Both the position numbers and the translations under genes were made by a program. DNA of 64,000 nucleotides. Origin: Rhizobiales bacterium 62-17. GTDB lineage: Bacteria; Pseudomonadota; Alphaproteobacteria; Rhizobiales; Beijerinckiaceae. Where the stretch lies: NCBI GenBank assembly GCA_001898965.1, contig MKVW01000006.1, positions 174,882-238,881 on the forward strand, given 5' to 3'. Below are positions 32,046-33,745 of the stretch, piece after piece; the stretch's first letter is position 1, and each line of letters opens with the position of its first letter. The notes under the pieces are model-generated. The model was not told the origin of the DNA. It did not search any database and was given only the letters and a program-made list of their open reading frames with translations.

Positions 32046-32969
32046 CTAGAAATATGACGCGCTGCCGATACGTTCCACATCGAAAGGTGTCGTCTGGTAG
32101 ATCTCGTTGATCCAGTTTCCAAAGAGGAGATGAGCATGGCTGCGCCAGCGGTTCTTCGGCCGATGCTGTGGGTCGTCATCCGGAAAGTAATTGCTGGGTA
32201 GCTGCATGCCATTCTCGATGTCCCGCACATACTCTTCGGCCAAGGAAGTCGAATCGTACTCCACGTGATTGAACATATGCAGAGTGCGATGCCGGTGATC
32301 GTCCACCAGACAGAGGCCCGTTTCGTCGCTGTCAGCCAACACGGTGAGGTTGCTGTCAGGCGGGATATCGTTGCTCCGTGTTTCCGTCCAGCGAGATACG
32401 GGGACGGAGAAGTCGTCCGAGAAGCCGCGCATGAAGGGCGATGATGGAACGAGATTGCGCTGTCGATAAACACCAAATGCTTTTTGTGGGAGTGCATGTT
32501 TCGGCATGCCGTGGAAGTGATGCACGGCGGCTTGGGCGCCCCAGCAGATAGTAAAAGTGCGATGCACGTGCGTTTGCGTCCAATCGAGCACGCGCTGTAG
32601 CTCATCCCAATAGCCAACTTCCTCAAACGGCATCCGCTCGACGGGAGCGCCAGTGATGAGAAAGCCGTCGAAACGATCAGACTGCATATCTGCCCATGGG
32701 CGGTAGAAAGCACGCATGTGATCGGCCGGCGTATTGCGGGCGATATGGTCGGTCATACGCACCAGGGTTAGTTCGACCTGCAGCGGGGTGGCGGCAAGCA
32801 AACGCGCAATCTGCGTTTCAGTACGGATTTTGTTGGGCATCAAATTGAGCAAACCAATCCGCATTGGACGAATATCCTGACGGATCGCGTCTGTTTCGCG
32901 CATGACCATGACGCCCTCGGCATTGAGGGTGTCATATGCAGGCAGGTCATCGGGAATTTTGATCGGCAT
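32046..32969 (-). CDS. metA: Homoserine O-acyltransferase MetA (acetyl-specific residue present)
   Basis: 307 residues, full length. The catalytic Cys142 lies in [14 protein letters not shown], and His235 and Glu237 lie in FNHVEYDS, the same numbering as the E. coli enzyme. At position 111 (TGAPVE) the residue is Glu; in this family Glu111 favours acetyl-CoA and Gly111 favours succinyl-CoA (established from structural work), so the product is probably O-acetylhomoserine for methionine synthesis. The gene is alone, with a promoter and a structured leader directly upstream. Confidence 0.93.
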
Positions 32970-32990
32970 TACCGCGGGCGTCCTTCACTC

Positions 32991-33102
32991 TGGGGCGAGA
33001 CAGACGCGGTGGCTGGATCCGTTTGATTGCCGGTTCGGCCACATCCTCCCTTCAGAGAGGCCACCTTGCTCGGTCAGCAGGTTGGCGTTGGGTCTCGCCC
33101 CA
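32991..33102 (-). ncRNA. Structured 5' leader of metA, candidate riboswitch
   Basis: Minus-strand RNA. TGGGGCGAGAC and GTCTCGCCCCA (32991-33001 and 33092-33102) form an 11-bp closing helix around about 90 nt. Inside, GGTGG/CCACC arms (33061-33065 with 33008-33012) enclose two hairpins: CCTCTC-TGAA-GGGAGG (33060-33045) and GCCG-AAC-CGGC (33039-33029). The stretch GGCC-GAACCGGCAAT resembles part of the SAM-I/SAM-IV core, but order and spacing do not match a class I know. The closing stem ends 12 bases before the GAAGGA ribosome site. Biological role inferred from position before a methionine gene. Confidence 0.6.
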
Positions 33103-33120
33103 ACTCTTGATGCGTAAATC

Positions 33121-33150
33121 GTTTTAGCTGGATCGCTGGGATCATTTCAA
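33121..33150 (-). promoter_or_regulatory. metA promoter
   Basis: On the minus strand TTGAAA (33150-33145) and TAAAAC (33126-33121) are 18 bp apart. Transcription would begin near 33112, about 10 bases before the leader's closing stem, which supports the leader's orientation. Confidence 0.6.
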
Positions 33151-33322
33151 CTGGTCTGTTGCGGGATCTGGGACGTTTCAGTAAAAGACGAGGGTCGAAA
33201 AAGGAGAGATCGGTGCGGTTAGCCCGATCCCCACGCGAGTGGGTCCTGGCCGTCGCTTCGGCGTTGAGTCCCAAGACTTTCCCCGCTGGCGCATAGGGTG
33301 CCGGCGTATGAAAGGTTAGGAC

Positions 33323-33745
33323 ATGCAACAGCAAATTTCGATCATTACCCTTGGTGTCGCTGATCTGGCGCGGTCGAAGCGTTTTTACGGTGAAGGCTTT
33401 GGCTGGTCGCCGGCGTTCGAGAACGAAGAGATCCTCTTCTTTCAAATGAATGGCCTAGTGCTTGGCTGTTTCCTCAAGCCGTCGCTAGAGGCGGATATGG
33501 GGCGGCCGCTTCTGGCGGCTGCTGGCGCCTATTCGCTGGCTCACAATGTGCAGAGCGAAGCGGCGGTTCTCGCCGTCATGGATCGATTGGTGCAGGCGGG
33601 CGGTCGCGTTGTAAGGCCGGCGGACGCGCCGTTTCATGGCGGTTTTCGGGGCTATGTGGCTGATCCTGACGATCATGCCTGGGAGATCGCATTCAATCCG
33701 GCCTGGACGATTGACGCGCAGGGGCATGTGACCTTCGGGATTTAG
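33323..33745 (+). CDS. VOC (glyoxalase/bleomycin-resistance) family protein
   Basis: 140 residues with one beta-alpha-beta-beta-beta pair: ISIITLGVADLARSKRFYGEGFGW opens the first module and VRPADAPFHGGFRGYVADPDDHAWEIAFNP closes the second. Candidate metal ligands include the Glu of WEIAFNP. Proteins of this size bind a metal and act on small electrophiles or confer antibiotic tolerance; the substrate is unknown. ATG follows GGTTAGGAC. It reads away from metA, and nothing else of note is seen between the metA promoter and this gene. Confidence 0.85.
   Translation: MQQQISIITLGVADLARSKRFYGEGFGWSPAFENEEILFFQMNGLVLGCFLKPSLEADMGRPLLAAAGAYSLAHNVQSEAAVLAVMDRLVQAGGRVVRPADAPFHGGFRGYVADPDDHAWEIAFNPAWTIDAQGHVTFGI

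Follow-up and report, generated by a model that had tools for sequence, protein, structure and literature searches.

What kind of RNA precedes the metA gene of Rhizobiales bacterium 62-17, and through which of its helices could it control the gene? The locus was analysed within a stretch of 64,000 nucleotides, here called the window, and all coordinates are positions in it. The riboswitch site is intergenic, flanked by metA on the minus strand (32969-32046) and by a divergent open reading frame on the plus strand (33323-33745), and 43 nt separate the aptamer from metA. The metA product scores 457.4 bits against the NCBIfam model MetA_acetyl (E 2.1e-137), slightly under the cut-off of 460.5, and 399.7 bits against MetA_succinyl (E 8.4e-120), far under the cut-off of 495. 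The gene, its ribosome site and the aptamer are positioned as follows.

32046..32969, minus strand: metA, homoserine O-acyltransferase of 307 aa, assigned by the NCBIfam MetA models
32981..32986, minus strand: Shine-Dalgarno sequence GAAGGA of metA, from the sequence, 11 nt before the ATG
33013..33118, minus strand: SAM-I/IV riboswitch aptamer (Rfam RF01725), a cmscan match

A preliminary description of the locus had read the leader as a SAM riboswitch with a core like that of SAM-I or SAM-IV, possibly of a new or variant class, and had proposed a covariance-model search for SAM families. Such a search with the Rfam models placed RF01725 (SAM-I-IV) at 33118-33013 on the minus strand, at 59.7 bits against a gathering cut-off of 41.1 (cmscan). 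The match spans positions 1-99 of the 99 in the model, is not truncated, and is the sole Rfam match over its cut-off in the whole window. SAM-I-IV belongs to Rfam clan CL00012, which also contains SAM-I and SAM-IV; it, and neither of these two, is the best match of the clan in the cmscan output, which does not print the scores of dropped clan members. A permissive Rfam search of 32800-33300, in which the tool suppresses overlapping matches of the same clan, lists no other SAM family, and its two further matches are both far under their cut-offs. The covariance model of SAM-II (RF00521) has no match in this region at E up to 10, in agreement with the earlier judgement that SAM-II does not fit.

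The structural details also agree with a SAM-I/IV core. P2 in the window is one helix without an internal loop (GUUGGG/CCCAAC, 33104-33087), P4 is present (CUCUC-UGAA-GGGAG, 33059-33046), and so are both P5 and PK-2, the pairing of the P3 loop with the 3' tail. The GGCC...CCGGCAAT stretch that had suggested the core is found as well, and constitutes its P1/P5/CAA part. By sequence and structure, the metA leader RNA is almost certainly a member of the known SAM-I/IV class. A new SAM class can be dismissed, because RF01725 matches over its full length above the curated cut-off and many relatives carry the family; an unusual 11-bp helix, described below, is all that speaks for such a class.

The following counts, from overlapping samples, include the window's own genome. 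A SAM-I/IV match is present in 10 of 61 near relatives; among sampled genomes, it is present in 44 of 298 at the level of the family (42 over the cut-off), in 77 of 397 at that of the order, in 35 of 385 at that of the class, and in 19 of 398 at that of the phylum. One of 14 control genomes has a match, which is under the cut-off. All 80 named metA loci were searched with an aptamer pattern, which was found in 37, and the remaining 43 may still carry an aptamer. An Rfam scan of 20 of them found SAM-I/IV at 17, SAM-II at two, and neither at the remaining one, L045. Three metA leaders (L023, L167 and L171) form a subgroup in which the linker between aptamer and metA is about 120 nt long, as against 43 in the window.

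The leader resembles the SAM-I/IV family (RF01725; the 'SAM-I-IV-variant' of Weinberg et al. 2010, PMC2864571) in its full-length match, unbroken P2, P4, P5, and PK-2; the excerpt of that paper gives the P2 internal loop as absent from the variant. An excerpt of PMC6890682 separates SAM-I/IV from SAM-IV by the unsplit P2, the missing PK-1 and the presence of P4, and lists P5 and PK-2 for SAM-IV. According to the same excerpt, SAM-I (S-box) and SAM-IV share the binding core with SAM-I/IV, whereas the splitting of P2 into P2a and P2b in SAM-IV and the kink-turn of SAM-I are not seen in the window. SAM-II (SAM_alpha, RF00521) shares the ligand and, as in the two loci above, precedes metA in some Alphaproteobacteria; the window leader, in contrast, lacks a SAM-II match, although such matches occur elsewhere in the window's genome. 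Unlike the Rfam model of SAM-I/IV, the match to which stops at 33013, the window leader also has a separate downstream platform with a strand complementary to P2, which we call the anti-P2 strand. The parts of the aptamer are listed below, with the share of paired cells in an alignment of 30 aptamers.

33109..33113, minus strand: 5' strand of P1, GCAUC, from the CM alignment; P1 pairs in 98.0% of cells
33041..33045, minus strand: 3' strand of P1, GAUGU, from the CM alignment and pair counts
33087..33104, minus strand: P2 hairpin GUUGGG-GCGAGA-CCCAAC, from the CM alignment; 98.3% of cells paired
33060..33086, minus strand: P3 hairpin, from the CM alignment; 98.9% of cells paired
33046..33059, minus strand: P4 hairpin CUCUC/GGGAG, of varying length among species, from the sequence; 59.2% of cells paired, with a poor MAFFT alignment there
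33029..33039, minus strand: P5 hairpin GCCG-AAC-CGGC, followed by CAA, from the CM alignment; 95.0% of cells paired
33071..33075, minus strand: 5' strand of PK-2, GACCG, in the P3 loop; three pairs counted, 96.7% of cells paired
33016..33021, minus strand: 3' strand of PK-2, CGGAUC, with one bulged A; three pairs counted, the other two from the sequence only

The 30 aptamers were chosen by us and aligned with MAFFT, and the window served as the structure template. The window structure pairs in 91.8% of cells. Two-sided changes affect 12 of 32 pairs, against a mean of 5.8 in shuffles, none of 500 of which reached as many; the helices thus covary among homologues, a point on which the preliminary description had let its reading depend. 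Slid versions, displaced by one to three columns, pair in 30 to 48% of cells; this control is biased toward the window structure because the structure was taken from the window. The version slid by +1 has more cells with two-sided changes than the unslid one (28 versus 24), with a covariation score of 0.120 versus 0.146 and 42.6% versus 91.8% of cells paired.

Two candidate promoter elements lie upstream of the aptamer.

33145..33150, minus strand: candidate -35 element TTGAAA, shared with locus L004, missed by a stricter scan
33121..33126, minus strand: candidate -10 element TAAAAC, TAAAAT in L004, missed by a stricter scan

The promoter in the preliminary description is partly supported: TTGAAA-18 nt-TAAAAC has the counterpart TTGAAA-18 nt-TAAAAT in L004, but a consensus promoter scan of the leader region found none. 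Transcription would start near 33114, about 12 nt before an 11-bp helix; the earlier estimate of about 10 bases comes close to this value. A terminator scan of 32960-33330 found no intrinsic terminator. In several non-metA relatives a run of T comes behind the hairpin, a candidate terminator.

The two strands of the 11-bp helix are the following.

33092..33102, minus strand: UGGGGCGAGAC, 5' side of the helix, made up of the P2 loop with 4 nt of the stem on its 5' side and 1 nt on its 3' side, from the sequence and the free fold
32991..33001, minus strand: GUCUCGCCCCA, 3' side of the helix, the anti-P2 strand, from the sequence, the duplex energy and covariation in relatives

This helix had been taken for the closing helix of the element. 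Its perfect 11-bp complementarity exists, and it ends 4 nt before GAAGGA (32986-32981), directly before the ribosome site as described. It cannot close the aptamer, however, as its 5' strand belongs to P2, which the pairing destroys; the closing helix is P1 (33113-33109/33045-33041). The stem part of UGGGGCGAGAC is the UGGG of the P2 5' stem and the loop part consists of all six P2 loop bases. The 11-bp helix and P2 are mutually exclusive, because the 5' strand of the one is part of the stem and loop of the other. The duplex has an energy of -23.7 kcal/mol in the window. An unconstrained fold of 33125-32960 prefers the 11-bp pairing, within a 12-bp helix, and this RNA has a better fold than shuffled versions, 4 of 200 of which do as well (z = -2.38). 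The 11-bp helix is probably the on/off switch, or expression platform, of the riboswitch.

The complementarity recurs in relatives. A 12-nt segment was moved along the aptamer and compared with the downstream region in 91 loci, of which 88 had clean anchors (L102, L117 and L151 were excluded) and 64 were non-redundant. Complementarity peaks at the P2 5' strand and loop, with a mean Z of -2.21 at offset 9 and 50% of the 64 loci below -2. It declines on both sides of the peak, to -1.51 at offset 12, -1.10 at 6, -0.63 at 15 and -0.41 at 3, where offsets 15 and 3 still overlap the P2 5' strand and loop, and stays between -0.20 and +0.28 at offsets 18-57.

The pairing of each aptamer with its own downstream region was compared with that obtained when downstream regions were swapped among loci. 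The test set comprised 123 loci, reduced to 76 by the removal of similar ones, and included 35 of the 37 named metA loci (L023 and L037 were omitted). At P2, own regions pair better than swapped ones, with z = -11.8 and 0 of 2000 permutations. The signal is found separately in metA leaders (24 loci, z = -4.2, 0/2000) and in non-metA loci (52 loci, z -9.4, 0/2000). Since related loci may count repeatedly, the test was rerun on distinct P2 segments. With one locus per distinct segment (54 loci), z ranges from -8.8 to -9.7, and with a minimum difference of 3 in 12 bases between segments (33-35 loci) from -5.2 to -7.9, with 0/2000 in each of five draws in both cases; the removal of similar loci is the extent of the correction for kinship. 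Offset 24 also deviates in the 76 loci (z -2.1, 35/2000), and this deviation is gone on the strict set (z -0.3). A second, weaker covarying complementarity to the downstream region is seen at offset 48, from the 3' side of P3 to P4 (z -3.2, 2/2000 in 76 loci; z -2.7, 9/2000 on the strict set), and is unexplained.

In 55 of the 76 loci, the energy of the anti-P2 duplex is -14 kcal/mol or better, and 21 lack such a duplex. The helix is formed by different sequences in different loci, for example by GGGGCCGACGC with GCGUCGGCCCC in L008, GAGCUGACGC with GCGUCAGCUC in L158, and AGGGCUGGCGC with GCGCCAGUCCU in L121. Ten further loci from the phylum sample were assessed with a slightly different downstream region. 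Three of them have a duplex of -14 or better, namely L177 and L178 from the same family and L181 from another class (-19.9); it is missing from L172, L173, L175, L176 and L180, all of another class, and from L174 and L179 of the same class. Of the six loci from other classes of the phylum, one thus has a duplex of this strength. Because the signal of own versus swapped regions holds and 55 of 76 loci have a strong duplex, selection probably maintains the P2/anti-P2 pairing in most of the members that were sampled, a set drawn from searches focused on this class.

The same signal could arise if the SAM-bound RNA, with P2 intact, used the downstream strand for a loop-loop (kissing) contact with L2, so that the contact would belong to the bound fold and not compete with it. 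When 6-nt segments are used, the strongest values are indeed on the P2 loop (z -6.4 and -6.6 at offsets 14-15), while a segment confined to the stem in the window reaches z -2.0 (27/1000), and strong values need one to three loop bases too. A loop contact, however, requires neither the z of -5.1 to -5.5 of segments that combine three to five stem bases with one to three loop bases (offsets 9-11), nor the pairing with at least 3 nt of the own P2 5' stem in 44 of the 55 strong-duplex loci, nor the 11 perfect pairs in the window that include UGGG of the P2 stem. We consider the kissing contact unlikely.

Marginally less likely still is switching through P1 or PK-2 as in other members of the SAM clan, with the anti-P2 pairing as a minor folding detail. 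The PK-2 pairs are kept (96.7% of cells), and in 2014 Trausch et al. reportedly assigned the PK-2 pseudoknot of a SAM-I/IV RNA to its regulatory switch, which speaks for a regulatory role of PK-2. In the window, however, the 3' strand of PK-2 is distinct from the Shine-Dalgarno sequence and stands 46 nt upstream of the ATG, and the covariation of the downstream strand with P2 would be left unexplained.

We regard it as likely that the metA leader acts as a SAM-I/IV riboswitch, shutting off metA when SAM is plentiful. That it switches by means of the anti-P2 strand is our preferred reading, held with a little more reserve. In the simplest account, three partners, namely the anti-P2 strand, P2 and the ribosome site, would make up an off switch. 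With SAM bound, P1, P2, P3 and the pseudoknot would be locked, and the freed anti-P2 strand (33001-32991) would pair with the Shine-Dalgarno region in a hairpin (33010-32971), blocking translation. With SAM absent, the anti-P2 strand would invade P2, forming 11 bp with its 5' strand and loop; the aptamer would be broken and the Shine-Dalgarno sequence more exposed. As the order of synthesis is P2, anti-P2 strand, ribosome site, switching would be a race. The hairpin of the bound state is predicted as follows.

32971..33010, minus strand: predicted sequestering hairpin, formed by ACCGCG/CGCGGU and an inner anti-P2/Shine-Dalgarno stem; -15.9 kcal/mol, linker z = -1.9

Folding energies were calculated with a model without pseudoknots and without ligand. 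For the longer RNA of the window, the ensemble energy is -67.7 kcal/mol when folding is free, -67.3 with the anti-P2 helix enforced, and -64.2 with P1 and P2 enforced. The mean unpaired probability of GAAGGA in these three ensembles is 0.69, 0.66 and 0.35, respectively. In the shorter RNA, the unpaired probability of a 5-base Shine-Dalgarno sequence is 0.57 when free and 0.41 with P1 and P2 enforced. Enforcing P1 and P2 is predicted to pair the anti-P2 strand with the Shine-Dalgarno region within the hairpin 33010-32971. In this energy model, the gap between the anti-P2 and the P1+P2 ensembles is about 3 kcal/mol, which ligand binding could bridge. The translational control suggested earlier is probable.

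Other metA leaders have comparable linkers. In 24 metA leaders, the linkers are more stably folded than their shuffles, with a mean z of -2.2 and 22 values below -1, and their hairpin covers part of the Shine-Dalgarno region. Across 51 metA leaders, not deduplicated, enforcing P1 and P2 leaves the mean exposure of the Shine-Dalgarno sequence unchanged (0.32 versus 0.32); exposure is lower in 38 of the 51 (Wilcoxon p 0.0097), with many rows equal to two decimals. A general thermodynamic switch across metA leaders is unsupported, given the equal averages. In the five folds shown for these leaders, L004, L118 and L133 keep P2 even without ligand, and the window and L021 form the anti-P2 helix. 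A kinetic, co-transcriptional account of the anti-P2 switch would be needed, because the average exposure is unchanged and three of the five folds keep P2 without ligand.

The anti-P2 strand of many non-metA relatives continues into CCUCC, a possible partner of a GGAGG Shine-Dalgarno sequence, and in some of them the CCUCC region precedes a run of U. Covariation of the anti-P2 strand with the sequence further downstream was evaluated in 54 loci with a duplex of -14 or better, within limits of position and length. It is found in the 35 non-metA loci (z -8.1, 0/2000) and is not clear on the Shine-Dalgarno side in the 19 metA leaders (z -1.7, 90/2000). We tentatively propose that alphaproteobacterial SAM-I/IV riboswitches share an undescribed platform, in which one strand would choose between the invasion of P2 (on) and a Shine-Dalgarno or terminator-like hairpin (off), so that switching would proceed through P2 and not through P1 or PK-2; the evidence gathered so far leaves this generalization short of probable.

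Among the literature matches listed, none describes an anti-P2 platform for SAM-I/IV in its title or the opening of its abstract. The platform is supported by sequence comparison and is possibly undescribed. We do not claim it as new, because the abstract of the 2014 study by Trausch et al. is said to name a pseudoknot in the regulatory switch. As a member of a known family, the aptamer itself is routine; the possible interest of the locus lies in the platform. Structures of SAM-clan aptamers with and without ligand are much alike, according to excerpts of PMC6890682 and PMC11477058, and give few clues as to how binding is transmitted. A concrete model of switching, open to tests by paired changes, is offered by the covarying anti-P2 strand, for which 55 of 76 sampled loci have a strong duplex.

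Besides its single SAM-I/IV match, the window's genome contains two SAM-II matches. One SAM-II match (L182, G000:C9:1014557-1014635) scores 59.4 bits and lies before an open reading frame that resembles a MetZ-type sulfhydrylase by eye. As SAM-I/IV precedes metA and SAM-II precedes the MetZ-like frame in the same genome, the two riboswitch classes may act at consecutive steps in the synthesis of methionine. The other (L183, G000:C9:778419-778496) is at the cut-off, with 36.1 versus 36 bits, and the 344-aa product of the frame behind it is like a transporter binding protein by eye.

Arrangements with several aptamers were also observed. Within the class, small genomes of 1.3-1.4 Mb have a SAM-V aptamer 30-38 nt downstream of SAM-I/IV, as in L106:1501-1698 (plus strand), L102:1501-1690 (plus strand) and L108:1595-1395 (minus strand). 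With a cut-off of 41 bits, the SAM-V parts of these tandems score 43.1 and 43.0, and in L108 39.6, which is under the cut-off; L098, which is similar to the tandem loci, has no SAM-V match listed. The excerpt of a review of tandem riboswitches (PMC9481103) names SAM-II/SAM-V, and SAM-II with SAM-I/IV in both orders, and does not name SAM-I/IV with SAM-V. Two genomes, G347 and G837, contain four SAM-I/IV matches each. In G870:C176, a divergent pair of SAM-I/IV matches, at 343745-343850 on the minus strand and 344158-344264 on the plus strand, is separated by about 300 nt.
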